Of a stretch of DNA of 64,000 bases, positions 8,879 to 34,821 are shown one piece after another. The DNA is from Mesorhizobium sp. L-2-11 (GTDB lineage: Bacteria > Pseudomonadota > Alphaproteobacteria > Rhizobiales > Rhizobiaceae), in contig NZ_AP023257.1 of NCBI RefSeq assembly GCF_016756595.1, forward strand, positions 1,517,001 through 1,581,000, given 5' to 3'. Position numbers and translations under genes: made by a program. Every line of letters begins with the position of its first letter. The first letter of the stretch is position 1. The notes beneath the pieces are model-generated. The model did no database searches. It worked only from the letters and a program-made list of their open reading frames with translations, and had not been told where the DNA came from.

Positions 8879-8889
8879 CGTGGTTAATA

Positions 8890-12735: not shown

Positions 12736-12903
12736 GGACAAGCTGGCGCCTGCAACACAATTCGGCGAGGCGGTTGACGCAGCCCCGAAGGCCCGTCAAA
12801 CATCGCGGCAAGAATGGCATCTCGGCAAGAGTGGCATCCTGGAAGAATGGGAGTCGCCACAAATCGCCGCCTCAACAAAAGATCCGAAGGCAGGGAAGAA
12901 ACG

Positions 12904-14331
12904 ATGGAAAAAGCCGAAATCGGCCTGATCGGCCTTGGCACGATGGGCTCCAACCTGGCGCTCAACATCGCCGAAAAGGGGCACCGCATAGCCGTCTTCA
13001 ACCGCACCGCCGCGCGCACCGACGCCTTTGTCGAGAATGCCGGGGCGCTCAGGGATATGGTTGTGCCCTGCTACAACCTGGAGGAACTCGCCGCCGCCAT
13101 CCGGCCGCCGCGGCCGATCATCATCATGGTGCTGGCCGGCAAGCCGGTCGATGAGCAGATCGCGGCACTGCGCGGCGAGCTGTCGGCCAACGACATCGTC
13201 ATCGATGCTGGCAACGCCAATTTCCGCGACACGATGCGGCGCTTCTCCGAACTTTCCGATTCGGGTCTCACCTTCATCGGCATGGGCGTGTCCGGCGGCG
13301 AGGAGGGCGCGCGCCATGGACCGTCGATCATGGTCGGCGGCACCGAAGGGTCCTGGAAACGCGTCGAAAAGGTGCTGACCGCCATTTCGGCCAAGTTCAG
13401 GGATGAGCCCTGTGCGGCATGGCTTGGCACCGATGGCGCCGGGCATTTCGTCAAGACCATCCATAACGGCATCGAATATGCCGACATGCAGATGATCGCC
13501 GAGATCTACGGCATCTTGCGCGACGGCTTAAGCATGGGGCCGAAGCAGATCGCACAGGTGTTTGCCGGCTGGAACAGGGGCCGGCTCAACTCCTATCTGA
13601 TCGAGATCACCGCCAAGGTGCTGGCCGCCGACGATCCGAAGACAGGCAAGCCGGTGGTCGACATCATCCTCGACCGCGCCGGCCAGAAGGGCACCGGCAA
13701 ATGGTCGGTCATCGAGGCGCAGCAGCTCGGCATTCCGGCCACCGCGATCGAGGCGGCGGTGGCGGCGCGCGTGCTGTCGTCGATCAAGGACGAGCGGCTG
13801 GCCGCCGAAAAGGCCTATGGCCATGGCGGCGTGACCAGGATTTCCGGAGACAAGGACGCGTTTCTTGGCGATCTCGAACTGGCGCTGTTCGCCGGCAAGA
13901 TATCAGCCTATGCGCAAGGCTTCGCAGTGATGAGCGGCGCGTCGAAGGAGTTCAACTGGAACCTGCCGATGCCGACCATCGCCAAGATATGGCGGGCCGG
14001 CTGCATCATCCGCTCGCAATTGCTGGACACGATGGCGGAAGCCCTCGACAAGGGCGGCGCAACCACCAATCTCCTAATGGCGCCGGCCTTCATCGCGATG
14101 ATGCAGGAAGCGCATCCATCGCTGCGGCGCATCGTGGCAAGGGCGTCGGAAGCCGGCTCGCCGGTGCCGGCGCTGTCGTCGGCGCTGGCTTATTTCGACA
14201 GCTACCGCCAGGGCCGCGGCACCTCGAACCTGATCCAGGCGCAACGCGATTTCTTCGGCGCGCACGGCTTCGAGCGCATCGACGGGCCGGGCGCGTTCCA
14301 TGGCCCTTGGGGCAGCGGGGCGGGGGGTTAG
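12904..14331 (+). CDS. gnd: 6-phosphogluconate dehydrogenase, decarboxylating
   Basis: 475 residues, close to the usual 470. The NADP Rossmann motif GLGTMG is at residues 10-15. The substrate segment SGGEEGARHGPSIMVGG is present, as is the catalytic Lys/Asn region FVKTIHNGIEYADMQMIAE. The enzyme converts 6-phosphogluconate to ribulose 5-phosphate in the pentose phosphate pathway. ATG 12904 follows GGAAGAAACG. Its 3' third (from about 13751) is duplicated at 19096-19681, and a 67-base piece recurs at 24035-24101, marking it as the left anchor of an accessory islet. Confidence 0.95.
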   Translation: MEKAEIGLIGLGTMGSNLALNIAEKGHRIAVFNRTAARTDAFVENAGALRDMVVPCYNLEELAAAIRPPRPIIIMVLAGKPVDEQIAALRGELSANDIVIDAGNANFRDTMRRFSELSDSGLTFIGMGVSGGEEGARHGPSIMVGGTEGSWKRVEKVLTAISAKFRDEPCAAWLGTDGAGHFVKTIHNGIEYADMQMIAEIYGILRDGLSMGPKQIAQVFAGWNRGRLNSYLIEITAKVLAADDPKTGKPVVDIILDRAGQKGTGKWSVIEAQQLGIPATAIEAAVAARVLSSIKDERLAAEKAYGHGGVTRISGDKDAFLGDLELALFAGKISAYAQGFAVMSGASKEFNWNLPMPTIAKIWRAGCIIRSQLLDTMAEALDKGGATTNLLMAPAFIAMMQEAHPSLRRIVARASEAGSPVPALSSALAYFDSYRQGRGTSNLIQAQRDFFGAHGFERIDGPGAFHGPWGSGAGG

Positions 14332-14420
14332 CGCCCAAGGTCGGACATTGAGATCAGCATTGCCGCTTCCTGAAAGCCAACATCCCAAGAACCTCACTGA
14401 GGGTCGTGGTTGCGCCATAA
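14332..14420. repeat. Left copy of a diverged ~90-base repeat flanking module A
   Basis: Starting at the gnd stop, the string GCGCCCAAGGTCGG...TTGAG.TCAGC...CGC.TCCTGAAAGC...GGTCG.GGTTGCGCCA is matched in the same order by 18894-18981, upstream of the gnd 3' copy. The two copies are clearly related but have many substitutions. The following 14421-14746 shows no convincing gene or RNA. Confidence 0.55.
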
Positions 14421-14759
14421 CCTGTCATTTGCAGCGCTTCTCCAAACCTGCCCTTCGCGCAACGGCCCAAACCGACCCGTTGACGACCTTGGGCGTTGCA
14501 GACTTGAACCTCCAAATCGAGGTCGGGAACCTGACCTTCAGCGCAAGAGCATTCGCTCGCGTGAGGTCATTCACCACATTTGGCGGCGACCCGCAGATGC
14601 TTTTCGTGTTATGATGGGCTTGCAACGCGCGCAATCTCGACCTCGGCAGGTCGAAAGCTATTGCCTTGGCACAGGAAGTCTTCGCCCCCAGCACTCGATC
14701 GCCTCCGAGACGCTGGGTGTGCTGCTTTCCCTGACTGATGCGGGGCGAGGAGGTTGTCT

Positions 14760-15404
14760 ATGTCCACGAGTAGTGTTGACCGCCCGCTGCAGCCGGGCGA
14801 CCGGGCACCGAATGTTGTGCTCAATGCGATCTCACGCGAAGGCAAGATCGCGCTCGATGATTTTCGAGGCCGTAGCCCGTTGTTGATCGGTTTGTTCCGA
14901 GGCCTGCACTGTCCGTTCTGCCGGCGCCATGTCGCGGCGATGGCGCAACTCAAGCCGGCCCTGCGTGAGAAAGGCGTCGAATGCCTGGCGGTGGTCAATA
15001 CGCCGGTCGAGCGGGCGCGGCTCTATTTCCGTTACCACCCGGCACCCGATCTTCTCGCCGCATCCGACCCGGAGCGGGCCTCGCACCGTGCTTTCGGCTT
15101 GCGCGAGGTTGGGATGGACACGGTCATGGCGATACGGATCCACCTTCCGGGCGAGTTGCCCGAGCCTATGGACGTCATGGCAATGAACGAGTTCCTCAAC
15201 AAGAAAGAAGGATATGAGATTACGGAAGCCGATCAGCAGGCGATGGTGGCTTCCGGCCAGGGGCAGCTTGTCGGTCAGTTCCTAATCGACCGGGCGGGCA
15301 TCGTACGCTGGAACTTCACTGAAGTTCTGGAGGATGGCCTCAACACCTTCAGAGCGCCGAATCCCGAGGAATTGATGTCGGCAGCTTCCCAAGTTGCACA
15401 TTAA
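14760..15404 (+). CDS. Peroxiredoxin-like redoxin (AhpC/TSA family)
   Basis: 214-residue thioredoxin-fold protein. The active-site segment FRGLHCPFCRRHVAAMAQL has two Cys in a CxxC arrangement near residue 50, as in peroxiredoxin-like redoxins that reduce peroxides or disulfides. ATG 14760 is preceded by GAGGAGG at 14747-14753; an in-frame TTG two codons earlier lies too close to that site. It is a single gene within module A of the gnd-lacI islet, with no visible partner. It is probably cytoplasmic (no signal peptide). Its reductant and substrate are unknown. Confidence 0.75.
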   Translation: MSTSSVDRPLQPGDRAPNVVLNAISREGKIALDDFRGRSPLLIGLFRGLHCPFCRRHVAAMAQLKPALREKGVECLAVVNTPVERARLYFRYHPAPDLLAASDPERASHRAFGLREVGMDTVMAIRIHLPGELPEPMDVMAMNEFLNKKEGYEITEADQQAMVASGQGQLVGQFLIDRAGIVRWNFTEVLEDGLNTFRAPNPEELMSAASQVAH

Positions 15405-15985
15405 TAGGCTGCGGAAATGGGCTGCTGAAAACTCGCTCGACGGCCACCGTCCTGTGGCGATTCTTTGGATTTAACAATCATCGAAATGCTCAGCGCGGGA
15501 GGCCAAGGTCTGCCCGTGGGCTTCGTAGCGATTTCGATTCAACGGTCTGCGGACCGCCCCAACGCTAGACTGAGCAAGCCGCATAGGCGGGGCGACGTCC
15601 GCTCCTTGCCGCAATCACGTCGTTCCGACAGGCGCGCATACGGCAAGTTTCCACCCAACCTGGTCCTCCAACGGCTTCTTCCGCGTGCAGAGCGGTTAAA
15701 AGCACGGGTCGCCTCGATTGCGCCAGCAACAGTCGTTTGATGCGATATCGGCGAATGACGGTTGTCGACGCCATTTTCTGACCTTCGGGGTCATGTGCGT
15801 CTCTTTCGCGCTTTCCGCCCAGCAGCTAATGGTGTCGCTTTCTGAGTGGGTCAAATAGCGCTATATTTGGGCACCAAGTGCTCGATGTAGGTAACGACTT
15901 TTTGGATGAGCAGCCCCGGTGAAGCGTGAAATTCGCATCATTTGGGAATGGTTCCTGACATCGGCTGCCGTCCGAAACCGATCAG
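15405..15985. other. Gene-free stretch
   Basis: About 580 bases between the redoxin gene and the substrate-binding protein gene. Short open frames occur, but none has a convincing ribosome site, family motif or normal codon use. No inverted-repeat-bounded insertion sequence was recognised. It may hold degraded sequence. Confidence 0.4.
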
Positions 15986-15994
15986 GTGGATCCA

Positions 15995-16981
15995 ATGCGT
16001 CAAGGGTATTTCGCTCTTGCCTACCTGCTGGCACTGTTCGTTGGACCGTTTGCGGCCAGCCAAGGGCTGGCCGCAACTGTTCCGCATGTAGGCCTTCTCA
16101 CCTATTGGAACTGCAGCCCGGGTACTGTTCAGGACGAATTCGGACCGTTTCTCAAGGGGCTTGAGGAACTGGGCTATAGGAAGGGCGAGACCTTTGCACT
16201 CGAGTGCCAGGCGGCCGGCAAGAATTACGACAGACTTGCCGAAGCGGCGCGCAAGCTGGTGCAGCTTTCTGTGGACGTGATCGTGACAAGCTCTCAACCG
16301 GCGGGACGTGCAGCCCACCAGGTGACGGATTCGGTCCCGATCGTATCGATCGTCAGCGGGGATCCGATATCCGCTGGCCTCGTCGCCAGCCTTGCCAGGC
16401 CAGGCGGCAATTTTACCGGGGTGAGCTACTATGCGACCGAACTTACTGCCAAGCGTCTGGAACTGCTGAAAGAAGCAATTCCGGGTATCGTCACGATCGG
16501 GGTTCTGGCCAACCCGGACGTTTCCTATTTGCCATTCGAGGCTGATGCAATGCGCGCGGCCGAAAAGCTCGGCATTGGCGTAAAGCTTCATCACATCAGG
16601 CAGCCGGCGGACCTCGATGTCGCAATCCCGGAAATGAAGAAAGAGAGCGTGCAGGCAATCTTCGTCCTGCCCGACGTCATGCTCGCCGGCGAGGCGGCAC
16701 ATATCGCCGATCTGGCGCTCGAACAGCGGTTGCCGACGATGGCATGGGCTCCGTGGTATCCGCGAAACGGCTGTCTGCTTGCCTATTCCGCGGATTACGC
16801 GGAGATGCTGCATCGGCTGGCTTTCTATGTCGACCGGATTCTCAAGGGAGAGAATCCCGGCGATCTTCCGCTCGAGCAACCGACAAAGTTCGAGCTGTCG
16901 GTCAATTTGAAAACGGCCAATGCTCTCGGCATCGATCTGCCGCAGACCGTACTGATCATGGCTGATGAAGTCATCGAATGA
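15995..16981 (+). CDS. Orphan ABC-type substrate-binding protein (ABC_sub_bind/TrpX-like)
   Basis: 328 residues with a signal peptide (about residues 1-27, cleavage near GLA-ATVP). The family core follows: HVGLLTYWNC, GLEELGYRKGETF, VDVIVTSSQPAGRAA, then PGGNFTGVSYYATELTAKRLELLKEAIP and the C-terminal NLKTANALGIDLPQTVL. ATG 15995 is preferred; an upstream in-frame GTG (15986) is possible. No permease or ATPase gene is adjacent. Instead its end overlaps the start of a membrane cyclase gene by 17 bases, so the two are probably co-translated and the protein may sense a ligand for the cyclase rather than import it. Confidence 0.85.
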   Translation: MRQGYFALAYLLALFVGPFAASQGLAATVPHVGLLTYWNCSPGTVQDEFGPFLKGLEELGYRKGETFALECQAAGKNYDRLAEAARKLVQLSVDVIVTSSQPAGRAAHQVTDSVPIVSIVSGDPISAGLVASLARPGGNFTGVSYYATELTAKRLELLKEAIPGIVTIGVLANPDVSYLPFEADAMRAAEKLGIGVKLHHIRQPADLDVAIPEMKKESVQAIFVLPDVMLAGEAAHIADLALEQRLPTMAWAPWYPRNGCLLAYSADYAEMLHRLAFYVDRILKGENPGDLPLEQPTKFELSVNLKTANALGIDLPQTVLIMADEVIE

Positions 16982-18779
16982 GGATGATGTGCGGGATTCG
17001 ATCCATCCCGAGGCCGCCCCCGTGCGCCGATCACTGTTTCGGAAGTATTTCATCGCCCTTTTAGCCGCCGTCATTGTCCCCATAACTGCCAGCGGCATCA
17101 GCAACGCCTGGTTCGGCTATCGCGATCAGCGTGCCATGCTCAGCGCTCTCTTGCGGGTGGAAGCCACATCGGCAGCCGGCAAGATGCAGAGCTTTCTCGA
17201 CGGCATCAGGGATCAGCTCAGCTGGACGGTCCAGCAGGCCTGGAACCCGGACGCCGAGGGACAGCATCGCCTGGATGCCCTGCGGGCAATGCGCCAAGCC
17301 CCGGCAATTGTCAGCATCACTCTTGTCGACAGTACGGGAGTAGAGCGGCTGCACGTGTCCCGAATTGGCTTGAACAGGATGGAAAGTGGATCGGATCGTT
17401 CAGGCGATCCTGCGGTCGCGGGAGCCCGGTCCACGGGCTTATGGTATGGCCCAGTCATGTTTCGCAACGGCTCCGAACCGTTCCTGACTATGGCAATGGC
17501 CGGAAACCGCAAGGCGGATGCGTTCGTCGTCGCCGAAATCAACCTGAAGCTCATCTGGATTGTCGTTTCGGAAGTTCGTGTCGGCCGCAGCGGTCAGGCA
17601 TTTGTTCTTGACCAGACCGGCCGGCTTATCGCTCACCCCGACATCAGCAAGGTGTTGCAAGGCACCGACGAGAACACAGCGGCTGCCCGGCGCAGATTGC
17701 GGGACGAGATCGCCACAGCGGGCGGCGAGGCGACAACGGCCCGCAACGCTGAGAATGAACGCGTCGTGACTGCGATGGCATCGATCCCCAGTGTTGGCTG
17801 GACCATGTTCGTCGAGCAGCCGCAGGCAGAAGCTTTTGCACCGCTCTATGCTTCTTTGTGGCGCACCGGCGGCCTGCTGCTTGCGGCGCTCATCTTAGCG
17901 GCGGCGCTCGCCTACTGGCTTGCCAGGCGCATGACCGGCCCCATCCGTCAGCTGGAGGAGGGCACCGAAAAAATCGGTGCCGGACAGTTCGATCACCGGA
18001 TCGACATCGCCACCGGAGATGAACTTGAACGGCTGGCGGTCCGGTTCAATCAGATGGCTCAGGAACTCGCCAAATCGCGGGATCGATCGGAGCGGATCGC
18101 GCGGCTGAAACGCTTTCTCGCACCGCAAGTCGCCGAGCTCGTGGAAAAATCCGGTGACGAGAGCGTACTCGCGGGCCAGCGGGCGGAAGTGGTCCCTGTC
18201 TTCTGCGATCTACGCGGCTTTACCGCGTTTTCGGCGCACGCCGAACCCGATGATGTCATGCAGGTGTTGCGCGACTATTATGAGGCTCTCGGCGCGATCA
18301 TCACGCGCTACGAGGCCACGCTGACCAACTTCTCGGCGGACGGGTTGATGGTGCTTGTCAACGCCCCTGTGCCGAGCGCGGAGCCAGCGCTTCGCGCCGT
18401 CGAGATGGCGATTGACATGCAGGATGCCGTTCAGCACCTGATCGCCGAGTGGCGTCTGCGCGGCCACGCGGTCGGTTTCGGCATAGGGCTCGCGATGGGA
18501 CGGGCGACGGTCGGCCGAATTGGCTATGAGGCCCGCGTTGACTACACCGCCATCGGCAATGTCGTGAACCTGGCGTCCAGACTGTGTTCGTCGGCCGATG
18601 ATCTGCAAATTCTCACCGATGACTCTGTGGCGTGTTCCGTCGGCGGCAAGATTCCGATGGTCGCCCTCGGCGCGCGCCACCTCAAGGGCTTCGATGAGGA
18701 AGTACGCGTGTACGACGTCGGAATACGGAGACTGACGTCAGATTTCGCTCCTGCGCCGGAGATCAGTGCGAAAAGCTAG
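16965..18779 (+). CDS. Membrane sensor adenylate/guanylate cyclase (Cache-HAMP-CYC)
   Basis: 604 residues. A transmembrane helix (about 27-48) is followed by a periplasmic Cache-like sensor (about 50-295; YGPVMF, FVLDQTGRLIAHPD), a second helix (about 303-320), HAMP (about 320-372, ARRMTGPIRQLEEGTEKIGAG) and a class III cyclase domain (about 385-590). Metal-binding aspartates are visible in CDLRGFTAFS and NFSADGLMV. The start overlaps the upstream binding-protein gene by 17 bases. It probably makes cAMP in response to a periplasmic signal, perhaps presented by the binding protein. Confidence 0.85.
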   Translation: MKSSNEDDVRDSIHPEAAPVRRSLFRKYFIALLAAVIVPITASGISNAWFGYRDQRAMLSALLRVEATSAAGKMQSFLDGIRDQLSWTVQQAWNPDAEGQHRLDALRAMRQAPAIVSITLVDSTGVERLHVSRIGLNRMESGSDRSGDPAVAGARSTGLWYGPVMFRNGSEPFLTMAMAGNRKADAFVVAEINLKLIWIVVSEVRVGRSGQAFVLDQTGRLIAHPDISKVLQGTDENTAAARRRLRDEIATAGGEATTARNAENERVVTAMASIPSVGWTMFVEQPQAEAFAPLYASLWRTGGLLLAALILAAALAYWLARRMTGPIRQLEEGTEKIGAGQFDHRIDIATGDELERLAVRFNQMAQELAKSRDRSERIARLKRFLAPQVAELVEKSGDESVLAGQRAEVVPVFCDLRGFTAFSAHAEPDDVMQVLRDYYEALGAIITRYEATLTNFSADGLMVLVNAPVPSAEPALRAVEMAIDMQDAVQHLIAEWRLRGHAVGFGIGLAMGRATVGRIGYEARVDYTAIGNVVNLASRLCSSADDLQILTDDSVACSVGGKIPMVALGARHLKGFDEEVRVYDVGIRRLTSDFAPAPEISAKS

Positions 18780-18893
18780 ACTTGGGACGCGGCTGGACCG
18801 AATGGCAACTCGTCACGTCGAGACCGGACCATCGAGATCGTGCAATTGGACAGCAGCTACGGGTCATTCCTTCCGGTTTGAAAACGGGAAGGT

Positions 18894-18981
18894 TGCGCCC
18901 AATGTCGGCTGTTGAGGTCAGCTTCGCCACCGCCTGAAAGCAGACATCGCCGGCGACTACGTTGGAGGTCGCGGTTGCGCC
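18894..18981. repeat. Right copy of the diverged ~90-base repeat flanking module A
   Basis: GCGCCCAATGTCGG...TTGAGGTCAGC...CGCCTGAAAGC...GAGGTCGCGGTTGCGCCA matches 14332-14420 in order and orientation with substitutions. It lies about 110 bases upstream of the gnd 3' copy. The rest of 18780-19095 shows no gene. Confidence 0.55.
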
Positions 18982-19095
18982 AAAAGCGGCCGTTCAGCCG
19001 ACAGATGTGAAATAGCGGGAGTCGGACCCTGAGCGCACATCGCCGAAGGCCTGTCCCGAACGCCGATAATTGTGCCGCCCCAACGCCGAGTATTC

Positions 19096-19681
19096 GGCGG
19101 CGGTGGCGGCGCGCGTCCTGTCATCTATCAAGGACGAGCGCCTGGCCGCCGAAAAGGCCTATGGCCATGGCGGCGTGACCAGCATTTCCGGAGACAAGGA
19201 CGCGCTTCTTGACGATCTTGAACTGGCGCTGTTCGCCGGCAAGATATCAGCCTACGCGCAAGGCTTCGCGGTGATGAGCGGCGCGTCGAAGGAGTTCAAC
19301 TGGAACCTGCCGATGCCGACCATCGCCAAGATCTGGCGGGCCGGCTGCATCATCCGCTCGCAATTGCTGGACACGATGGCGGAAGCCCTCGACAAGGGTG
19401 GCGCAACCACCAATCTCCTGATGGCGCCGGCCTTCATCGCGATGATGCAGGAGGCGCATCCATCGCTGCGGCGCATCGTGGCAAGGGCGTCGGAAGCCGG
19501 CTCGCCGGTGCCGGCGCTGTCGTCGGCGCTTGCCTATTTCGACAGCTACCGCCAGGGCCGCGGCACCTCGAACCTGATCCAGGCGCAACGCGATTTCTTC
19601 GGCGCGCACGGCTTCGAGCGCATCGACGGGCCGGGCGCGTTCCATGGCCCTTGGGGCAGCGGAGCGGCAGGTTAGCGCCGC
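19096..19681 (+). pseudogene. gnd: Duplicated 3' end of gnd (codons ~283-475)
   Basis: This stretch repeats the C-terminal 193 codons of gnd (13751-14337), including the stop and the following GCGCC, with scattered substitutions, mostly synonymous. Homology starts abruptly at GGCGGTGGCGGCGCGCGT and ends at TTAGCGCC. The frame is open from 19070 but lacks the NADP domain and most of the active site, so it cannot be a working dehydrogenase. The divergence suggests either an old duplication or arrival of an allele from a related strain. It forms the boundary between modules A and B of the islet. Confidence 0.9.
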
Positions 19682-19936
19682 ATTATTGGTCGGGTTAAGC
19701 TCCGATATTTCCAGTCCTCAAAGCGGTCATTTCCCCCGAAGTCCAGGATGCTCCGGCGGCCCACTACCCAAGATTGCGCTTAATCTCAGGCGACCTCGTG
19801 CAGTGTGGAGTGATCAACCCGCATTATGACCCTGCTGCTCGCCGGGAAGAATGAATTCCATCATCGGCGATATCGACTCTGCCGGTTTGGAGTATGGTTC
19901 GATAATTGGGATTGCGCCGCGGCCGCTAGCTACTGG
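19682..19936. other. Gene-free stretch
   Basis: About 255 bases between the gnd 3' copy and the 3' end of the hydrolase pseudogene. Nothing recognisable was seen. Confidence 0.4.
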
Positions 19937-20757
19937 TCATCGGTCCGAACCCGAGATCGATACCTTGGCTATGAAGGCAAGGACCGTCGTGTTGAATTCA
20001 TCCGGACGCTGTAGCGGCGCAAAGTGACTAACGCCGGGCAAAATGATTGATGCGGCCCCCGGAATAGTGTCGGCCAGGTAGTTGGCATGCTCTCGCTTGA
20101 TGAATTCGTCATGCTCGCCGAGTGCGACGATGACAGGCACCTCGATGGCGCCAAGGTCCTCTTTGGTATAGTTCGGCTGGGTTCGCATCATCAGCCCCAC
20201 CGCGCTGACGAACTGGTCGAAGGCGGCTGGCGTGGCGGAGAGCATGGCGTAGTCTTTCCTGTGGCGACTGAAGCAGCGATCGAGAAGCGGACTCGGTTCG
20301 ATCTGCTTTGTGCCACCAGGATCCATGTTGCAGGCGAAAAAGAAGACGCCTGCCACGCGTGCTGGTGCCTTGGAGGCAACTACCAGAGCGACGCAAGCGC
20401 CGTCACTCCAGCCGACGAAGGCAGCCTTGTCGAGGGAAAGGTGGTCCATCACAGCCACGACGTCAGAAGCCATGAGTTCATAGGAATATGGCCTGTCATC
20501 GCGGGTGCTGCGGCCGTGCCCGCGACTGTCGATCGTCACGACGCGGTGGCCCGCCGCTACCAAGGCCGGCACCTGATATCCCCAATTGCCGCTGTGGCCG
20601 AGTCCGCCGTGCAACAGGATGACGGGAGGACCGCTGCCAAATGATGCTACCAGATCAGGGCTCCGTCATGCTCCACGCGATCCTCGCGATCGGGGGCGGG
20701 GAGAAGGGCGGCTCCATGCTCGGCAAACCGGGTAAGGTCGTCGTCATATAAATTCAT
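19937..20757 (-). pseudogene. Alpha/beta hydrolase gene broken by a one-base frameshift
   Basis: The catalytic part is intact: nucleophile Ser in GWSDGACV, acid Asp in GEHDEF and His in GVSHFAPL. Reading from ATG 20757 gives MNLYDDDLTRFAEHGAALLP, a plausible N-terminus, down to ALIW and then TAG (20647-20649). The continuation ASFGSGPPVILLHGGLGH, with the HGG oxyanion segment, lies in another frame starting right there. Total length 821 is one short of a multiple of three, so a single lost base explains it; restored, the protein would be 273 residues. An internal start could make a protein without the HGG strand, probably inactive. A sequencing error cannot be excluded. It is divergent from the TetR gene. 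Confidence 0.75.
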
Positions 20758-20796
20758 ATCGGGTTCCGTGTTTCGAGAGCTACGCGCGCTCTACTG

Positions 20797-20822
20797 TTGA
20801 CACATACCAACCGTAAGGTATG
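20797..20822. promoter_or_regulatory. Candidate TetR operator/promoter in the divergent region
   Basis: TTGACA at 20797-20802 is followed by the inverted repeat CATACC (20803-20808) / GGTATG (20817-20822) with an 8-base spacer. The right arm overlaps the possible ATG at 20820. This fits autoregulation by the TetR protein if translation begins at the next ATG (20832). Confidence 0.4.
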
Positions 20823-21464
20823 AATATTCGCATGTCTAGGCCAACCAAACATGCTCCCGAGCGCGGTGATGCCCGAACCCGGCTCCTGGAAGCTGCAAGG
20901 GACACTATCCGCGCCAAAGGCTTCGCCTCGGCCAGCATTGATGATCTTTGCAGGGCGGCTGAGGTAACCAAGGGGGCATTCTTCCACAACTTCGGTAGCA
21001 AGGAAGCCCTGGGAGTTGCAGCTGCGGAATTTTGGGCCAGGACCACCTCGGGCTTTTTCGCCGCGGCTCCCTATCATCACCCTCGCGATGCGTTGGAGCG
21101 GGTGCTTGCCTATGTCGCTTTTCGCAAAGCGATCATCACGGAGGATCTGGCGGAGTCCAGCTGTCTGGTCGGAACGATGGCTCAAGAGGCCTACATGACC
21201 TTCCCCAGCATCCGCGATGCGTGCGGAGCCAGCATGTTCGATCATGCGTCGACGCTAGAGGCCGACATTGAACTGGCCCGCCGTGAGCGCGGTGTTACGG
21301 ATGATTGGACTGCCGAAAGTCTAGCTCGATACACGCAGACTGTTATCCAAGGAGGATTCGTCCTTGCGAAAGCAGGGAATGACGCGGAGCTGGCGCGCGA
21401 AAGTCTTGATCATTTGGAGCGGTATATTCGGCTTCTGTTTCGCGTTGCCGACGACGAGACGTGA
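20820..21464 (+). CDS. TetR/AcrR-family transcriptional regulator
   Basis: 214 residues. The N-terminal TetR DNA-binding domain covers about residues 15-62 (RTRLLEAARDTIRAKGFASASIDDLCRAAEVTKGAFFHNFGSKEAL, shown here by its positions and the AFFHNFGSKEAL signature). A helical ligand domain with a TetR_C-like end (DWTAESLARYTQTVIQGGF) follows. Start may be 20820 or ATG 20832 (MSRPTKHA). It is divergent from the broken alpha/beta hydrolase gene, its likely original target. The intergenic palindrome supports local control. Confidence 0.85.
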   Translation: MNIRMSRPTKHAPERGDARTRLLEAARDTIRAKGFASASIDDLCRAAEVTKGAFFHNFGSKEALGVAAAEFWARTTSGFFAAAPYHHPRDALERVLAYVAFRKAIITEDLAESSCLVGTMAQEAYMTFPSIRDACGASMFDHASTLEADIELARRERGVTDDWTAESLARYTQTVIQGGFVLAKAGNDAELARESLDHLERYIRLLFRVADDET

Positions 21465-21678
21465 GCGAGATCGATCAGAACGCAATCGAGCGCATGTTCT
21501 GCCCAAACGCCGTCAGTCTGAGAGTCCGAATTCCAAGGCCGAACCGACCTTTGTTGATCGAACGGCAAACATGATCGCTAAGCAACAACCAGCCGCATCT
21601 ATGTCGGGGAGTGCGCGTCTGCTTGCCTGTCGCCGGACGTAGCTCTGTCCCCGAAGATTCTTCTTCCCGTTTCGGCGA

Positions 21679-23421: not shown

Positions 23422-23581
23422 GCGCGGAACCTTATCGCGCAGGATTCAAAAAATGATAAAGCTACTGTTCTCGGGTCGGTGCCGTCTTTCGGCATCCGCC
23501 CTCGTTGACGAATCTCGTTACGCTCAACGCGAGCGCGACGATCGACCCATAACCTCTACCTCAGCGCGCGCGCTCCTCCCG

Positions 23582-24101: not shown

Positions 24102-24104
24102 TAT

Positions 24105-24779: not shown

Positions 24780-24862
24780 GCCGGCCTTGCCCTTGCTCGG
24801 TGCAGTTGCCAAATCCGTGTGTGCGGGAAGTATCCCTTGCGGATCGGCATAGCAAGTCGCGT

Positions 24863-27597: not shown

Positions 27598-27708
27598 TGC
27601 GGTCCTTTCGCGGATATCGCGTGCGCGTGACAATGCGCCGGCGTGATCGCGGCGTCCATTGTGCCTTGGTGTCGGTTCGATGATGAGGCATCGCCGGGCC
27701 AATACAAA

Positions 27709-27723
27709 GGTATCGCCGATACC
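27709..27723. promoter_or_regulatory. Candidate operator between the kinase and the epoxide hydrolase genes
   Basis: GGTATCGCCGATACC is a perfect palindrome (6-base arms, 3-base centre) in the 201-base divergent region. It is 75 bases upstream of the hydrolase start and 111 bases upstream of the kinase start. It could be the site of the FixJ-type regulator encoded in the kinase operon; this is inferred from position only. Confidence 0.4.
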
Positions 27724-27798
27724 ATCGTGCAATAGCTTTGCCTCGCCTGACAGTCGATCTGTGTGCCGTCCAAAGCATCAGCAAACAGGGAGAATGTC

Positions 27799-29073
27799 AT
27801 GTCGGCACGATCACTTACTCGACGGCATCTACTTGCAGCGACAGCGGCAGCCGGGGCCATCGCGCTTCTTCCGGGAGCAGCGTTGGCAACGGGCGGCGGC
27901 AACTCGATCCGCCCGTTCACCGTCAACATCCCGCAGGAAGAGATTGACGAGCTTCGCCGGCGCATAATGGCGACACGCTGGCCGGACCAGGAGACCGTCG
28001 CCGATCGGTCGCAGGGCATTCAGCTCGCAAGATTGCAGGAGATCGTCCGTTACTGGGGAACCGAGCACGACTGGCGCAAGGCTGAGGCAAAGCTGAATGC
28101 CCTGCCGCAGTTCATGACCGAGATCGACGGGCTCGACATCCACTTCCTTCACGTTCGATCGAAGCAACCCAACGCCCTGCCGCTAATCATGACGCATGGT
28201 TGGCCCGGCTCCGTCTTCGAACTGATCCAGACGGTCGGCCCGCTCACGGACCCCACGCAGCATGGCGGCAGGCCTGAGGATGCCTTCGACCTGGTGCTGC
28301 CCTCGATGCCCGGCTACGGGTTCTCCGGCAAGCCGCGCGGCGTGGGCTGGAATCCAGACCGCATCGCAAGTGCCTGGGCCGAACTGATGCAGCGCCTGGG
28401 CTACGACCACTACGTTGCCCAGGGCGGCGACTGGGGCGCGCCCGTTTCAAGCGCGTTGGCACGCCAGGCGCCAAAGGGATTGCTTGGCATCCACATCAAC
28501 TTGCCGGCAACGATACCGGCGGACGCGGCCGCAGTGCTTGCCGCCGGCGGGCCGGCGCCAGCCAGCCTCACCGAGAAGGAAGGTGTGGCGTTCGGTTCGC
28601 TCGAAAACTTCTACAAGAAATATCGGGCCTACGCGGCAATGATGGGCACGCGGCCACAGGCAATTGGCTACGCATTGACGGATTCGCCGGCCGGGCTCGC
28701 CGGCTGGATGTACGACTACAACAACGGCGAACCCGAGCGCCTGCTCAGCAGGGACGAGATGCTGGATAACGTCACGCTGTACTGGCTGACGAACAGCGCG
28801 ACTTCGGCGGCGCGGCTCTACTGGGAGACGATGGGCCAGAGCGTGCTTCTCGCAGCGGCGCAGAAAACCTCCGATATCTCGCTCCCGGTCGCCATCTCGG
28901 TATTCCCCGAAGAGGTCTATCGAGCGCCCGAGACCTGGGCCCGGCGCGCCTATCCCAACCTGATCTACTTCAACGAAGTGAACAAGGGCGGACACTTCGC
29001 CGCCTGGGAGGAGCCGGAGCTCTTCTCGGCCGAACTGCGCGCCGCCTTCAGGTCTCTGCGGCCGGCACACTAA
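27799..29073 (+). CDS. Tat-exported epoxide hydrolase (EHN + alpha/beta hydrolase)
   Basis: 424 residues. A twin-arginine signal (SLTRRHLLAATAAAG, ending in ALATGGG) is followed by the epoxide-hydrolase N-terminal domain (IRPFTVNIPQEEIDELRRRI) and an alpha/beta hydrolase fold. The oxyanion segment is HGWPGSVFE, the nucleophile Asp is in GGDWGAPVSS and the His in KGGHFAAWEEPE. Family members open epoxides to diols; the substrate is unknown. ATG 27799 follows an AGGGAGAA ribosome site. It is the first of a plus-strand set (hydrolase, cupin, VOC, SDR, second hydrolase) divergent from the kinase operon. Confidence 0.88.
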   Translation: MSARSLTRRHLLAATAAAGAIALLPGAALATGGGNSIRPFTVNIPQEEIDELRRRIMATRWPDQETVADRSQGIQLARLQEIVRYWGTEHDWRKAEAKLNALPQFMTEIDGLDIHFLHVRSKQPNALPLIMTHGWPGSVFELIQTVGPLTDPTQHGGRPEDAFDLVLPSMPGYGFSGKPRGVGWNPDRIASAWAELMQRLGYDHYVAQGGDWGAPVSSALARQAPKGLLGIHINLPATIPADAAAVLAAGGPAPASLTEKEGVAFGSLENFYKKYRAYAAMMGTRPQAIGYALTDSPAGLAGWMYDYNNGEPERLLSRDEMLDNVTLYWLTNSATSAARLYWETMGQSVLLAAAQKTSDISLPVAISVFPEEVYRAPETWARRAYPNLIYFNEVNKGGHFAAWEEPELFSAELRAAFRSLRPAH

Positions 29074-29106
29074 TCCTCAAACCGCGAACGCCAAAGGAAA
29101 ATAGCC

Positions 29107-29517
29107 ATGAAAACGTTTCGAATGATCGCGGCGGCGACGCTTTTTGCCGGTGCTGTTCTCACGCCGCTGCTGGCGCAAACCGAAGAGGCACAATTGCTCG
29201 GTGTAGGGCGCACCGACTTGCTGCGGGCGGACCTCGGCATCCCCGGACGTGAAGTCATTCAGGTGCTTGTCGAATTCGCCCCGGGCGTGACGGCGCCTTG
29301 GCACGCGCATCCTGGCGAAGAGATCGCCTATGTCGTCGAGGGCCAGCTGGAGTACACGCTCCAGGGTAAGCCGCCGCTGACACTCAGCGCCGGCGATACG
29401 CTCTTTATCCCACAGGGAACAAGCCACACGGCCAAGAACGTGGGCAGCGGCAAAGCGCTCGAGCTCGCTACCTACATCGTCGAAAAAGGAAAGCCGCTCG
29501 TCGCGCTGGATGAATAA
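29107..29517 (+). CDS. Exported single-domain cupin
   Basis: 136 residues with a signal peptide (about residues 1-23, LLA-QTEE). One cupin barrel shows motif 1 metal ligands (WHAHPGEEIAYVVEG) and motif 2 (PQGTSHTAKN). It probably binds a metal in the periplasm. It starts 33 bases after the epoxide hydrolase stop, likely in the same transcript. Similar small cupins often accompany oxidative or detoxification genes; no reaction can be assigned. Confidence 0.8.
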   Translation: MKTFRMIAAATLFAGAVLTPLLAQTEEAQLLGVGRTDLLRADLGIPGREVIQVLVEFAPGVTAPWHAHPGEEIAYVVEGQLEYTLQGKPPLTLSAGDTLFIPQGTSHTAKNVGSGKALELATYIVEKGKPLVALDE

Positions 29518-29584
29518 CGCCTGGCAAGTAACGCCCAGCGAAGCATGCGCACGTCAACACAACCAAGGGAAATAGGAGACCATC

Positions 29585-30235
29585 ATGAACCACGCTGTTA
29601 TTGCAAGAGATGTCGCGTCCTCCACGCGAGCGACAGACATGAAGCTCGAGGTCGTCGTTATCCCAATCTCGAATGTCGAGCGCTCCAAGCGCTTCTATGG
29701 CGACCTGGGCTGGCGACTCGACGCCGACTTTGCCGTCGGGGACGACTTTCACGCCGTTCAGTTCACGCCCCCGGGTTCGCCGAGCTCGATTCACTTCGGC
29801 AAGGGGATCACGTCGGCCACGCCGGGATCGGCTCGAGGACTGTATCTGGTCGTGTCGGACATCGTCGAAGCGCGCGAAGAGCTCATCGCTCACGGTGCCG
29901 AAGTGAGCGAGATTTTCCACCGCGCCGGGCCTGGAAAGCCGGCCATCACAGGTCTGGATCCGGAACGCCGCAGTTACTTCACCTACGCCACGTTCAGTGA
30001 TCCGGACGGCAATGAGTGGCTGCTGCAGGAAGTCACTACCCGGTTTCCCGGCCGGATCGACACCAACACGACAAGTTACGCTTCTGAGGCCGATCTTGCC
30101 TCTGCGATGCGGCGGGCAGCTGAGGCCCATGGCGAGCACGAGAAGCGCAACGGCGGCCAACGCGATGAGAATTGGCCGGACTGGTACGCCAAGTACATGG
30201 TGGCGGAACAGGCCGGCAAGCCGCTGCCGCTCTAA
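29585..30235 (+). CDS. VOC-family (glyoxalase/bleomycin-resistance fold) protein
   Basis: 216 residues. The VOC fold begins near residue 20 (MKLEVVVIPISNVERSKRFY) with GWRLDADF and the C-terminal acidic ligand region FSDPDGNEWLLQEV near residue 140. A charged C-terminal tail of about 60 residues (EKRNGGQRDENWPDWYAKYM) follows and is longer than the simple family. The ribosome site AGGAGACCATC precedes ATG 29585; an alternative start is residue 19 (29639). It belongs to the hydrolase cluster, and a perfect hairpin lies just after it (30258-30279). Substrate unknown. Confidence 0.75.
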   Translation: MNHAVIARDVASSTRATDMKLEVVVIPISNVERSKRFYGDLGWRLDADFAVGDDFHAVQFTPPGSPSSIHFGKGITSATPGSARGLYLVVSDIVEAREELIAHGAEVSEIFHRAGPGKPAITGLDPERRSYFTYATFSDPDGNEWLLQEVTTRFPGRIDTNTTSYASEADLASAMRRAAEAHGEHEKRNGGQRDENWPDWYAKYMVAEQAGKPLPL

Positions 30236-30257
30236 GCAGCAACCCAAAATCGGGTGA

Positions 30258-30279
30258 GCGGGACGGGTCGCCGTCCCGC
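30258..30279 (+). terminator. Hairpin after the VOC gene
   Basis: Perfect 9-base stem GCGGGACGG / CCGTCCCGC with a 4-base loop in the VOC-SDR gap. No T-run follows, so termination may be weak or the hairpin may only stabilise RNA. Confidence 0.4.
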
Positions 30280-30368
30280 CGCCCAGCTCAACCGGCGATC
30301 CAAGCCTGGTTTGCCGCTGATGTTTTCACGCGCGCTGTTGCCGGCGCAATCGTATGGGAGAACGATCA

Positions 30369-31175
30369 ATGACGCATTCCAAAATGGGCATCGCGATGGT
30401 GACCGGCGCCTCCGCCGGGATTGGAGCGATCTACGCCGACCGGCTCGCGCGCCGCGGCTATGACCTCATTCTCGTGGCGCGCAGCCAGGAGAGGCTGGAC
30501 GAAGTGGCCAGGCGCATCGCCGGCTCAACGAATCGCAACGTCAGCGCCGTTGCGGCTGACCTCAACGACAAGGCGGATCTGGGCCGGATCGAGACCTTGC
30601 TCGGCGCCGATCCCGCCATCACGATGCTGGTCAATAACGCTGGCATCGGCGCCGTCGCGCCGCTCTTGGAATCCGACATCGACAAGATGCAAGCGATGAT
30701 CGGGCTCAACATCACGGCGTTGACCCGCTTGACTTATGCAGCGGCTCCGGCCTTTGTGGCGCGAGGCGGCGGCACAATCATCAACATCTCGTCAGCGGTC
30801 GCCATCGCGCCGGAAATCCTCAACGGCGTCTATGGCGCGACGAAAGCCTTTGTGCTCGCTTTCAGCCTGTCGCTCCACAAGGAGCTTGCGGACAAGAAGC
30901 TGCGCATCCAGGCGGTTCTGCCCGGCGCCATCGCCACCAATTTCTGGGACGTATCAGGAGGTTCACTCGACGATCTGCCGAGCAAGGCGATCATGCAGTC
31001 CGATGACCTCGTCGACGCGGCCCTTGCCGGCCTCGACCAGGGCGAGTTGGTGACTATTCCCTCGCTTCCCGACGTCGCCGACTGGCACGCCTATGAGGCG
31101 GCGCGGCAGAAACTCATCCCAAATCTTTCGCTCAACACCTCGCCAGCGCGGTACGGCATCGCCGTGGCCGCGTAA
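30369..31175 (+). CDS. Short-chain dehydrogenase/reductase
   Basis: 268 residues. The NAD(P) motif TGASAGIG is near residue 14, NNAG near residue 91, and the catalytic Ser (NISSAVA) and Tyr-Lys (YGATK) are in place. The sequence resembles the DltE/YqjQ-like general SDRs. ATG 30369 has GGGAGAA at suitable spacing, better than ATG 30354. It probably acts on a carbonyl or alcohol in the same route as the neighbouring hydrolases, but the substrate is unknown. Confidence 0.82.
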   Translation: MTHSKMGIAMVTGASAGIGAIYADRLARRGYDLILVARSQERLDEVARRIAGSTNRNVSAVAADLNDKADLGRIETLLGADPAITMLVNNAGIGAVAPLLESDIDKMQAMIGLNITALTRLTYAAAPAFVARGGGTIINISSAVAIAPEILNGVYGATKAFVLAFSLSLHKELADKKLRIQAVLPGAIATNFWDVSGGSLDDLPSKAIMQSDDLVDAALAGLDQGELVTIPSLPDVADWHAYEAARQKLIPNLSLNTSPARYGIAVAA

Positions 31176-31348
31176 CCAAGCGAAAACTCAATGGGTCAGC
31201 CTGAGTAAAGCGCCAGAGGACCTCCATGACGCCGAGCGGGTCGCAAACCAAGCATTCGCACCTATCACGGTCGACGTGTCCGATGTGACAGTCGACCGAA
31301 GATAATCTTCCACCAGGCACCATGCCTTATCAACGGGTACAAACCACT

Positions 31349-32401
31349 ATGACCGAACAGATCGACCTCCATCGGCGGCACCTTTTGGGCGTGGCCGTCA
31401 CCACCGTCGCGGCCGCTCAGTTTGCCATGACGGGCTCGGCATATGCGCAGTCCAGCATTACAAAACCGGACGCCAACACAATCGAACCAGAAGCGAACAC
31501 GTCGTTCGGTCCGTTGAAGCAGGTTAAAGCTGGCGTACTCGACATTGGATATGCCGAAGTCGGTCCTAGCAAAGGGTCGGTCGTCATCCTCCTGCATGGA
31601 TGGCCGTACGATATCCACACCTATGTCGACGTTGCGGCTATCTTGGCGTCGAGGGGCTTTCGCGTCATCGTCCCCTATCTGCGCGGCTACGGCTCGACGC
31701 AGTTTCTCTCCAGCGAAACACCGCGAAATGGCCAGCAGGCGGTGGTCGCCGTCGATGTCATCGCGCTGATGGATGCACTGCAGATCGATAAGGCGATTGT
31801 CGGCGGTTGCGACTGGGGCGCACGCACGGCCAACATCATTGCGGCACTGTGGCCGGAACGCTGCAAGGCCTTGGTTTCGGTCAGCGGCTACCTGATCGGC
31901 AGCCAGGAGGCCAACAAGATGCCTCTGCCGCCAAAGGCCGAGCTGCAGTGGTGGTACCAGTACTACTTCGCCACCGAACGCGGCCAGGCCGGCTACGAAA
32001 AGTACCGGTGGGATTTTGCCAAGCTGATCTGGCAGATTGCCTCGCCGCAGTGGAATTTCGACGATGCCACGTTCGAGCGCAGCGCCAGGGCCTTCGACAA
32101 TCCGGATCATGTGGCGGTCGTCATCCACAATTACCGCTGGCGGCTCGGCCTCGCAGAAGGCGAACCCCAATATGACGTTCTGGAGCAGCGGCTTGCAAAG
32201 GCGCCGGTGATCGGCGTGCCGACGATCACCCTTGAGGGGGACGCCAACGGCGCGCCGCATCCCGACCCCAGCGCCTACGCGAAGATGTTCTCCGGCAAAT
32301 ACGAGCACCGGCTCATATCCGGCGGCATAGGGCATAATCTTCCGCAAGAAGCCCCGCGGGCATTTGCAGACGCCATACTGGAGGTGGCGAGCCTGGCCTG
32401 A
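31349..32401 (+). CDS. Tat-exported alpha/beta hydrolase (epoxide hydrolase/dehalogenase type)
   Basis: 350 residues from ATG 31349 (an in-frame ATG at 31322 is possible). A twin-arginine-like signal HRRHLLGVAVTTVAAAQ is followed by the hydrolase core: HGWPYDIHTY, nucleophile Asp in GGCDWGARTANI, and the C-terminal His in GGIGHNLPQEAP. It belongs to the epoxide hydrolase A group, without the EHN domain of the 27.8 kb protein. The preceding gap 31176-31348 shows no gene. It is the second exported epoxide-hydrolase-like protein of this cluster, which suggests a shared extracytoplasmic substrate. Confidence 0.8.
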   Translation: MTEQIDLHRRHLLGVAVTTVAAAQFAMTGSAYAQSSITKPDANTIEPEANTSFGPLKQVKAGVLDIGYAEVGPSKGSVVILLHGWPYDIHTYVDVAAILASRGFRVIVPYLRGYGSTQFLSSETPRNGQQAVVAVDVIALMDALQIDKAIVGGCDWGARTANIIAALWPERCKALVSVSGYLIGSQEANKMPLPPKAELQWWYQYYFATERGQAGYEKYRWDFAKLIWQIASPQWNFDDATFERSARAFDNPDHVAVVIHNYRWRLGLAEGEPQYDVLEQRLAKAPVIGVPTITLEGDANGAPHPDPSAYAKMFSGKYEHRLISGGIGHNLPQEAPRAFADAILEVASLA

Positions 32402-32511
32402 GCAAATCGCCATACCGCGATACATGATCGAGGGTGCCAGGGCGAAACTGATGAAATCACAACCGCACCGAGCAACAGGCCGAGACCCGATCTCATCGAG
32501 CAGGATACGAA

Positions 32512-33546
32512 ATGAACACTGGCCGGGACCGCTTTCGTCGCCCTTTGCAGTGGCTCCTCGCACCCATTGTGGGGGCAGTAGCGGGCTTGGCCTACGCGCT
32601 GATGTTCGACGTCGAGGCCCTGCACTCCGCAGTCAGGGGCGTGTTCATCGGAACTCCTATTCTGTTGTATGAGCGCGGCGTTATCTTGCGCCGATGGCGC
32701 GATATCATCCGGCAAGCGGCAACGCCGGTCTTCGTCGTGGCTACGATCGCAACCTACGGTTTGATGATCTTGATCGGCAACGCCGCCGCCGGCACAGCGC
32801 TTCACCATCTCATCGGCTATATGAGCACCGCGCGGGAAGCCATGGTGATGTCGGAGTCCGGTCTTCTGTATTCACTCGGTGTCTCCACGCTCGTCGCATT
32901 CGTGTTCCGACTGCGTGACCTTATCGGGCCGAGCCTGTTCACCAGCCTGCTTCTTGGGCGCTATCATCGGCCCATCGAGGAGAAGCGCATCTTTCTGTTT
33001 CTCGATGTCAGCGGATCCACGCACTTCGCGGAGCGATACGGCGATCTGGAGACCCAGGCCTATCTCGGACAGATATTCAACGCACTTGCGTCTCCCGTTC
33101 GTCGCTCCCAGGGCTCTATTGACGACTATATCGGCGATATGGCGCTGGTCACCTGGCCCATGGATCGCGGCATGCGGGACGCCGCGTGTCTTCGTTGCGT
33201 CTTCGACTTCGCGGCGGCCATAAGGGATCAGGCGGCGGCGTGGCAAGCGCGTTTCGGGCAAGTGCCGGAGTTTCGCGCCGTCCTGCATTGCGGGTCGGTG
33301 GTAACGGCTGAGATTGGCCTTGAGCGACACAAGATCGCGTATTTCGGCGATGTCGTGAACACCACTGGACGTCTGGAGTCGCTATCCAAGGCTCTCGGTC
33401 AACCTATTCTGGTCTCCGCAGATCTTCTCGCCGGTATCCGTGTTCTACCTCCACATGTCGTCACGGAGAACCTCGGATTTCATGTGATTAGAGGCCGAGA
33501 TGAACCGCTTCAGATCTCAGCCGTAAGGCTAGCATCGGGAAGCTGA
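32512..33546 (+). CDS. Membrane-anchored adenylate/guanylate cyclase
   Basis: 344 residues. Hydrophobic helices lie at about 13-31, 71-90 and 117-133, and a class III cyclase domain at about 155-335. Metal-binding Asp165 (FLFLDVSGST) and Asp209 (YIGDMALVTW) are present, and the segment KIAYFGDVVNTTGRLE carries the usual substrate/transition-state region. It would make cyclic nucleotide at the inner membrane; no sensor domain other than the membrane part is seen. It is the last gene of module C, 110 bases after the second hydrolase, and the second cyclase gene in the islet. Confidence 0.82.
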   Translation: MNTGRDRFRRPLQWLLAPIVGAVAGLAYALMFDVEALHSAVRGVFIGTPILLYERGVILRRWRDIIRQAATPVFVVATIATYGLMILIGNAAAGTALHHLIGYMSTAREAMVMSESGLLYSLGVSTLVAFVFRLRDLIGPSLFTSLLLGRYHRPIEEKRIFLFLDVSGSTHFAERYGDLETQAYLGQIFNALASPVRRSQGSIDDYIGDMALVTWPMDRGMRDAACLRCVFDFAAAIRDQAAAWQARFGQVPEFRAVLHCGSVVTAEIGLERHKIAYFGDVVNTTGRLESLSKALGQPILVSADLLAGIRVLPPHVVTENLGFHVIRGRDEPLQISAVRLASGS

Positions 33547-33752
33547 TTGGAGTGGCGCCATCATCTCCGTGCATCCACCTATCTTCGATGCCCATTTTAC
33601 GGCAGTCGCCGTCACTCCTGTTCGCTTTTGAAGGTCCAGGTTTCGCAGCTGCCGGTTCGTTTTCGGCCCCAAGGCTGCCAGTCAGCAGCGCGCATTTTGC
33701 AGCCAAGTGGAATCACTTGGCGCCGCAGAAATGCGGCTAAGACAAATAGATG

Positions 33753-33784
33753 GAGCGGGAGTTCGATTTGAACATATCCCGCTC
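33753..33784 (-). terminator. Hairpin at the end of lacI
   Basis: GAGCGGGA / TCCCGCTC stem with a 16-base loop, overlapping the lacI stop. A copy accompanies the duplicated lacI end near 23692-23724. No clear T-run was seen, so termination strength is uncertain. Confidence 0.4.
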
Positions 33785-34821
33785 TAGTCGGAGCCGCGAT
33801 AGGCCAGAACCCCGGTCGGCTTGTTCAGGCTCTGCAGGGAGCCAGGTGCTGCGCCGCCGATCCAGCCCAGCACCGAGCGGGCGAGCTCGGCGCCGGCCAG
33901 CCGGAAGTTCTCGTTGACGACCAGCAATTCCCTGCGGAACAGGTGCAGCAGGTCGGACGACTGCTTGGACACCACGTCGACGTCCCGGCCGAGCTTGAGG
34001 CCGGCGTCCTCGATGCCGGCGACGATGGCCAGTGTCGCGGCAGCGGCACTGCTGACGAAACCGTCCGGCCTGACGTCGCGGCGCATCAGCTGCGCGGTCC
34101 TCATCCTGATCTGCTCGATCGAATGATCGACCGAAACGGTGTTGAACGGGATCTCGCTGGCGCCGACCTCGCTGAGCGCATCGGTGAAGCCGTCCAGCGT
34201 ATGACCGTGGTAGGTCAGCTCGACTGGAGGCGCCAGCAGAGCCAGCCGGCGGCGGCCGATGCCGGCCAGGTGGCGCACAGAATCGGCCGCGAAAGCATAG
34301 TTGTCGAAATCATGATAGGGGTGGATCAGCCCCGTGCGGCCATGCGTGGCAAAGGGAATGCCTCGCTCCAGCATGTAACGGGCCCTGGGGTCATTCGGCT
34401 GGGTGCGCGAAATGATGACGCCGTCGGCGGAGCCGGTTTCCATGAGATAACGTATCGGGTCCAGGGGGTCCTGGGTGCGTGAATAGGGCGTGACGATCAG
34501 GTGGTAGGGCGTGTCGGCGATGACTTCCGAAACGCCGTAGATGATGTCAGAGACAAAGCTCATGATCTCGCGCTCGGTGTTGAGCACCAGGCTGATGACA
34601 TTGGTCTTGCCGGTCCGCAGGCGCACACCGGCACGGTTGGGGCGATAACCGATCTGCCTGGCGACGAGCTGGACGCGCCGCCTTGTTTCGGCGCCGATCT
34701 CGGGCGCGTCCTTCAGCGCCCGCGACACGGTGGTGACGCCCAGCCCGGTCATGAAGGCAAGCGTCTTCAATGTCGGCCGGCCCGACGCCTCGTCGTCTTT
34801 TTCCGTCTGATCTCTGTCCAT
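33784..34821 (-). CDS. LacI-family transcriptional repressor
   Basis: 345 residues. The N-terminal LacI HTH covers about residues 15-62 (TLKTLAFMTGLGVTTVSRAL, then IGYRPNRAG hinge). A periplasmic-binding-protein-like sensor domain fills the rest, with EREIMSFVSDIIYGVSE and DGVIISRTQPNDPR. It is divergent from the CUT1 sugar ABC operon and almost certainly represses it through the two matching operators at 34911-34924 and 35179-35198. Its 3' end is the right anchor of the accessory islet, and a partial copy lies at 23582-24034. Confidence 0.92.
   Translation of the reverse strand: MDRDQTEKDDEASGRPTLKTLAFMTGLGVTTVSRALKDAPEIGAETRRRVQLVARQIGYRPNRAGVRLRTGKTNVISLVLNTEREIMSFVSDIIYGVSEVIADTPYHLIVTPYSRTQDPLDPIRYLMETGSADGVIISRTQPNDPRARYMLERGIPFATHGRTGLIHPYHDFDNYAFAADSVRHLAGIGRRRLALLAPPVELTYHGHTLDGFTDALSEVGASEIPFNTVSVDHSIEQIRMRTAQLMRRDVRPDGFVSSAAAATLAIVAGIEDAGLKLGRDVDVVSKQSSDLLHLFRRELLVVNENFRLAGAELARSVLGWIGGAAPGSLQSLNKPTGVLAYRGSD

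Follow-up and report, generated by a model that had tools for sequence, protein, structure and literature searches.

Displaced gnd and lacI ends at a Mesorhizobium hotspot suggest growth by one-sided homologous capture without an integrase

Integron cassette arrays are additive arrays of modules. They were compared with displacement arrays in a study of Vibrio cholerae (Kirchberger et al. 2017, PMC5361080; all papers are cited here from excerpts), in which the effector-immunity arrays of the type VI secretion system (T6SS) were attributed to sequential displacement by a process akin to homology-facilitated illegitimate recombination, with later exchange by homologous recombination, and the displacement of rhs C-terminal ends was cited. 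In integrase-free hotspots, exchange was described as passing through the flanking core genes in a double, two-sided recombination model (Oliveira et al. 2017, PMC5635113). Work on homology-facilitated illegitimate recombination in Escherichia coli also yielded circularisation followed by a single crossover (PMC3240628). The subject of the current analysis is the accessory islet between gnd and lacI in Mesorhizobium sp. L-2-11. It lies in a stretch of 64,000 nucleotides (the window; NZ_AP023257.1, 1,517,001 to 1,581,000) on a 6.65-Mb contig of a 7.4-Mb genome assembled in 5 contigs.

The gnd-lacI junction is a hotspot, and we put a probability of about 0.7 on the reading that it has grown, without an integrase, by one-sided homologous capture of DNA from relatives. 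The repeats on which this reading is built were mapped by a blastn comparison of 10-38 kb with itself, which gave the order gnd, module A (14434-19095), gnd', module B (19680-23586), repeat-lacI', gnd'', module C (24101-33652) and repeat-lacI. The left flank is an intact gnd, encoding 6-phosphogluconate dehydrogenase (12904-14331, plus strand; Pfam 6PGD, 4.5e-117 on the open reading frame (ORF) from 12814) and present as a single full copy in the genome, and the right flank is an intact gene for a lacI-family regulator (33784-34821, minus strand; Pfam Peripla_BP_1 and LacI). The 3' end of gnd, 13752-14335, recurred gap-free over 584 bp at 19096-19679 on the plus strand (gnd', gnd positions 849-1428, 96.7% identity). 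The last 313 bp of lacI together with the structured repeat downstream of it, 33653-34096, recurred as 448 bp at 23587-24034 on the minus strand (lacI', 94.6%), and an internal gnd piece of 78 bp, 13930-14007 (gnd positions 1027-1104), recurred at 24023-24100 on the plus strand (gnd'', 94.9%), where it is joined to lacI' via GCGCG. Since the E-values of the three matches were 4e-29 to 0, a chance origin of the repeats is excluded. A genome-wide search with gnd, in which 40 of 304 candidates were scored, gave the same three places and one 44-bp stretch. All three copies had been placed within a few bases of these positions in the original prediction. It had called the recurring gnd end a third of the gene, which is too low (580 of 1428 bp, or 41%), and had rightly seen a lacI 3' end fused to a gnd piece, a copy that also extends about 130 bp past the lacI stop.

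The locus resembles the integrase-free hotspots in having variable accessory genes between two core genes and no recognisable mobile element, but here growth is additive, as displaced pieces of its flanking genes show, unlike in the two-sided model (PMC5635113). As in the T6SS arrays, a new module enters via an anchor and the old 3' part is kept downstream; here, however, the displaced ends come from a housekeeping gene and a regulator, both flanks grow and the cargo of the window does not consist of toxin and immunity genes (PMC5361080).

Both gnd and lacI were searched in 146 genomes of the genus including the window's own, with the two best candidates per genome scored and weak rows unlisted. 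Usable rows were obtained for gnd in 140 genomes and for lacI in 137, and the two genes were convergent on one contig in 132. Left out were six genomes without a usable gnd row, G014, G140 and G006 with the genes on different contigs, the non-convergent G011 and G120, and G044, G031 and G073 without a usable lacI row. The gap between the genes was 369 bp or less in 101 of the 132 genomes, so that strains with gnd directly beside lacI, a check proposed in the original prediction, do exist, and it measured 1.2-38.9 kb in the other 31. The site thus has constant core neighbours and a content that varies between related genomes, as expected of a hotspot. For comparison, 26 islets were read from the 31 filled sites (the window's own and 25 others), along with 8 empty sites from among the 101 and the loci of G014 and G140, which are split between contigs; G075, G048, G059, G092 and G043 were not among the islets compared. 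In trees built from the 5' parts of the two genes (33 rows: 20 large-islet, 8 empty and 5 with single-gene inserts), the gnd tree required at least five gains or losses of the large-islet label and the lacI tree at least four, and G074 fell in different groups in the two trees, a result for these 33 rows and this site only.

Parts of all three modules were found in relatives. Module A had counterparts in G074 (75%) and in G014 (82%), which also has B, while B recurred in G140 and G040 and C in G040, G089 and G034. The block of B from about 21627 to 23527 adjoins lacI in G014, G140 and G040 at 95-97%, and the main part of B also occurs in L058, L059, L060, L063, L064 and L066, where the flanking sequence compared, short in some cases, contains neither gnd nor lacI. 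The right part of C was 88-96% identical to G040 and G089 and 88-91% to G034, and the left part only 68-77%, where relatives matched at all. Strains holding exactly module A, B or C alone, which had also been proposed as a check, were not found; the relatives of these modules occur in other combinations.

Displaced pieces of gnd or lacI were present in four of the 26 islets read, those of the window genome (G000), G040, G089 and G034, and none was detected at E 1e-4 in the other 22. G040 has gnd 751-988 after a C-like module, and G089 has the repeat plus lacI 1-95. G034 has lacI pieces 1-215, 3-95 and 1-142 plus 743-897 with N between, the last of which is probably one piece. All five lacI pieces, including the one with the internal N run, retain the lacI 3' end, adjoin a module on the left and are truncated on the 5' side, which is what the capture model calls for. 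A displaced old end with its 3' end kept thus stands beside a module in all five lacI pieces and in gnd' of the window, although not in gnd'' or the G040 gnd piece. The module orders differ among the four genomes: in G040 the C module is to the left of the gnd piece, and in the other three it is to the right, of a lacI piece in G089 and G034 and of lacI'-gnd'' in the window. It is hardly credible that the copies are collapsed or misjoined repeats produced by assembly. The N run inside one G034 lacI piece would fit such an artefact, but the window genome was assembled in only 5 contigs, its copies differ by 3-5% and the same class of structure was seen in three other assemblies, two of which, G034 and G089, have one junction in common.

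That shared junction, between 95 bp of lacI' and module C, was identical in G089 and G034, but the 3' ends of the lacI piece differed. Positions 8818-20097 of G089 aligned unbroken to 12847-24102 of G034 at 95.5%. The lacI piece of G089 ends with the right-border type of repeat, and that of G034 ends like the real lacI of G089, with a segment X before it. Segment X lies left of the lacI'-C junction in G034 and right of C in G089. A circle consisting of C, X and lacI' that entered a repeat-lacI chromosome by one crossover within the 95 bp would predict exactly this pattern; an exchange on an existing displaced piece would predict it also. Under either reading the displaced piece would have acted as a crossover site. 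As a separate observation, breakpoints recur just 3' of the stop of the last cyclase gene in module C (33551-33564), after which G000, G040, G089 and G034 diverge.

Microhomology was scored at three junctions, the others having one known parent only. The lacI'-gnd'' junction has 5 bp in common (GCGCG; chance 0.009), the lacI'-C junction of G089 and G034 has 6-7 bp (CCGAGC plus one extra base; chance 0.003-0.001), and the C-gnd' junction of G040 has 3 bp (chance 0.065), which becomes 7 bp when a slip is permitted. For random breakpoints, the shared stretch was at least 5 bp in 0.8-0.9% of cases, at least 6 bp in about 0.3% and at least 3 bp in 6-7%.

In the capture mechanism that we favour, a DNA fragment from a related strain would pair by homology with gnd or lacI at one end, and illegitimate joining of its other end, through microhomology of a few bases, would take place within the recipient's own copy of that flanking gene. 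Alternatively, end joining may first close the fragment into a circle, which would then enter by a single crossover. Either way, the newly added module would end up beside an intact gnd or lacI, and the previous 3' end would stay on the old module. In the window, module A would have come in by an event on the gnd side, separating gnd from the displaced gnd' and B, and module C by an event on the lacI side, which set it to the right of B and lacI'. Being homologous DNA, the displaced ends could in turn be used for later crossovers, as is suggested by G089 and G034. The order of events, the foreign origin of the DNA, its route of entry and the choice between the two joining variants are what we infer from the scars. 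Homology-facilitated illegitimate recombination likewise has one homologous and one illegitimately joined end (PMC3240628, PMC2884548); the events proposed here are read from genome scars rather than observed, and the variant with a circle and a single crossover, known from E. coli, would fit G089.

The main competitor is a local tandem duplication running from inside gnd to inside lacI, which would have formed the lacI'-gnd'' junction and been followed by an exchange that replaced the module of one copy. The lacI'-gnd'' fusion, with its 5 bp of microhomology, is the expected product of such a duplication, gnd' and lacI' are each nearest their own genome's gnd and lacI, and the change of side of segment X between G034 and G089 is what derivatives of a duplicated state would show. 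Three observations speak against it. Apart from the gene ends and a single weak repeat found at both ends of A, modules A, B and C have no mutual nucleotide similarity, although members of the cyclase and hydrolase families occur in more than one of them. The differences between gnd and gnd' are mostly synonymous: of the 19 counted in 579 bp, 15 were synonymous and 4 nonsynonymous, where a nonsynonymous share of 0.73 was the neutral expectation (P 4e-6, a value that rests on both lineages jointly, because gnd' taken alone gives P 0.02 only, and whose weight is limited by an intact gnd being expected to change mostly at synonymous sites anyway). When polarised on 17 other gnd sequences, 5 changes were assigned to gnd' and 6 to gnd, with 4 synonymous ones in each, and 8 were unplaced. 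This pattern favours two functional alleles brought together rather than a decayed local copy. Finally, two of the G034 lacI pieces are nearer other species, one matching G037 at 319 of 341 positions versus 306 for its own lacI, the other matching G143, G140 and G089 at 87 of 93 versus 79. For these reasons repeated acquisition from relatives is favoured over tandem duplication, which we regard as rather unlikely. The original prediction had offered repeated additive recombination and tandem duplication side by side; the former has been strengthened, as acquisition from related strains, and simple duplication has lost ground.

The result for gnd' alone weighs against one-sided capture, and so do several further observations. 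Both gnd' and lacI' are, among the sequences compared, nearest this genome's own gnd and lacI, and the third G034 lacI piece is likewise nearest its own (190 of 197). Between lacI and lacI', 6 differences are synonymous and 4 nonsynonymous. None of 12 relatives shares the one frameshift insertion of lacI' or 3 nonsynonymous and 2 synonymous changes in it, and 2 further synonymous changes each occurred in one or two of the 12. In view of these private changes, part of the divergence of lacI' postdates its truncation; it has decayed and is probably the older of the scars, and at the lacI'-gnd'' junction a local duplication step is possible. Since gnd'' here and the gnd piece of G040 lack the gnd 3' end, both require an extra deletion. 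With displaced ends in only 4 of the 26 islets, two-sided exchange would suffice for most of them, unless their scars were lost. Intermediates were not seen, and no genome compared is known to be of the same species. As to carriers, a gene transfer agent was rejected: GTA_TIM, the one gene transfer agent family searched, had no match in this genome and the Caulobacter control was positive. ComEC is present, but 10 of 14 controls have it too. The rate of one-sided capture measured in E. coli was about 3e-10 per recipient, and three of four clones were without junction homology, so that microhomology is not strictly required for an illegitimate junction (PMC3240628).

Both borders of the islet carry repeats. 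The left repeat (14332-14433, plus strand; profile match 14326-14433) is degenerate and lies directly 3' of the gnd stop codon. Among the best 150 of 6492 candidates it had at least 17 genome matches at E<=0.01, two of them in this islet, where a second copy at 18892-18996 places it on both sides of module A. It forms a degenerate direct repeat of about 105 bp, and three same-strand pairs 4.6-8.5 kb apart were found among the at least 17 matches. The right repeat (33653-33783) touches the lacI stop, has a strong fold (z-score -5.3 for 33653-33800) and matches seven places outside the islet; it may be RIME-like. We read both as dispersed intergenic repeats. No Rfam family matched at gathering score in 12-36 kb, which disposes of a known RNA family at the borders, and with no tRNA in the window a tRNA-anchored island was also dropped.

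The repeats could instead border a cassette-like element moved by a recombinase acting in trans. Of the 20 large islets, which comprise 18 filled sites together with G014 and G140, 17 have a match to the left-repeat profile at the gnd stop. All 29 matches of this profile inside islets are on one strand, and the repeat flanks both module A (14332 and 18892) and the gene of a 580-aa protein in L060; the right repeat adjoins lacI in 16 of the 20, as a rule ending at the lacI stop. This agreement is partly built in, because the profile was made from many of the same sequences and chosen on that strand. Moreover, the duplicated pieces end within gnd and lacI and not at the repeats, both repeats are scattered over the genome, and no recombinase was present among the proteins checked. 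Because four copies elsewhere (L068, L069, L071 and L080) share sequence reaching further upstream, the copy at gnd looks truncated rather than cut at a fixed site. Recombination at the border repeats was therefore reduced to a weak rival, and we consider it improbable. The locus shares with integron cassette arrays the additive modules and the repeats at some borders. It differs in that no integrase family occurs among the islet proteins checked (the rest of the genome was not searched), in that the duplicated pieces end inside genes, and in that no attC site was identified when the repeats were inspected, without an attC model.

In content, the modules resemble ordinary accessory genes of metabolism and signalling. 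By Pfam, module A encodes an AhpC/TSA-like protein, an ABC substrate-binding protein and a Cache-HAMP-adenylate cyclase, and module B an alpha/beta hydrolase, a TetR regulator and the 580-aa protein (21679-23421), which has no Pfam family. Module C encodes LuxR-type and single-domain response regulators, a PAS histidine kinase, an epoxide hydrolase, a cupin, a glyoxalase, an SDR protein, an alpha/beta hydrolase and an adenylate cyclase. Nine records of the 580-aa protein were found, eight from Mesorhizobium and one, a 69% relative, from a Sphingopyxis metagenome-assembled genome; in the eight Mesorhizobium records its 1.9-kb block has nearly constant limits in differing contexts. The absence of a transposase or integrase noted in the original prediction held by Pfam among the 15 main islet proteins of the window, one of which had no Pfam family at all, and none was seen among 30 proteins of G034, G089, G040 and G143, out of 133 islet ORFs of relatives. 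A family tally over 112 of these 133 ORFs covered 25 of 138 families, so that the other islets were only partly checked. The first gene of a 2.5-kb insert in G134 (L036) may encode an insertion sequence transposase.

Some relatives' islets may carry defence genes. At E 1e-5, among the first 25 of 116 families, HamB-type helicase, PDC-M23B and PDC-M70A models each matched two of the 112 proteins. The HamB matches are likely the two helicase ORFs of G089, the tally giving no member names, and the PycC matches are probably merely ordinary cyclases. In G089 (L019:3272-7184), a DUF3223 protein is accompanied by DEAD and Helicase_C parts in two overlapping ORFs, a possible Hachiman-like module that is perhaps frame-broken. 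The G034 islet (L021:2086-4574) opens with a SIR2-domain protein and a weakly Mrr-like one, below Pfam's cut-off, which together may form a defence pair.

Integrase-free core-gene hotspots (PMC5635113) and displacement arrays (PMC5361080) are already known. Among the papers listed in literature searches, none, judged by title and opening of the abstract, treats partial gnd copies, a Mesorhizobium gnd hotspot or partial copies of flanking genes, and neither 'gnd' nor '6-phosphogluconate' occurs in the main text of a Mesorhizobium mobile-element paper (PMC8627217). What would be new is growth on two sides, on a housekeeping gene and a regulator, with one displaced end apparently reused in a second species.

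Tentatively, the displaced ends might be self-renewing landing pads, at which the fresh homology left by each capture, as short as about 95 bp (G089/G034), would let the next module be added, not swapped. The junction of the core genes would then act like an integron array without an integrase, its modules and junctions moving from one Mesorhizobium species to another. Integrases are missing from many bacterial hotspots, and how genes are added to them rather than swapped is the question that this locus addresses, uniting as it does core-gene hotspot exchange with displacement-array growth. Because it retains readable scars of single additions, the parents of some junctions and empty sites in close relatives, the joining mechanism and the order of events can be tested directly.

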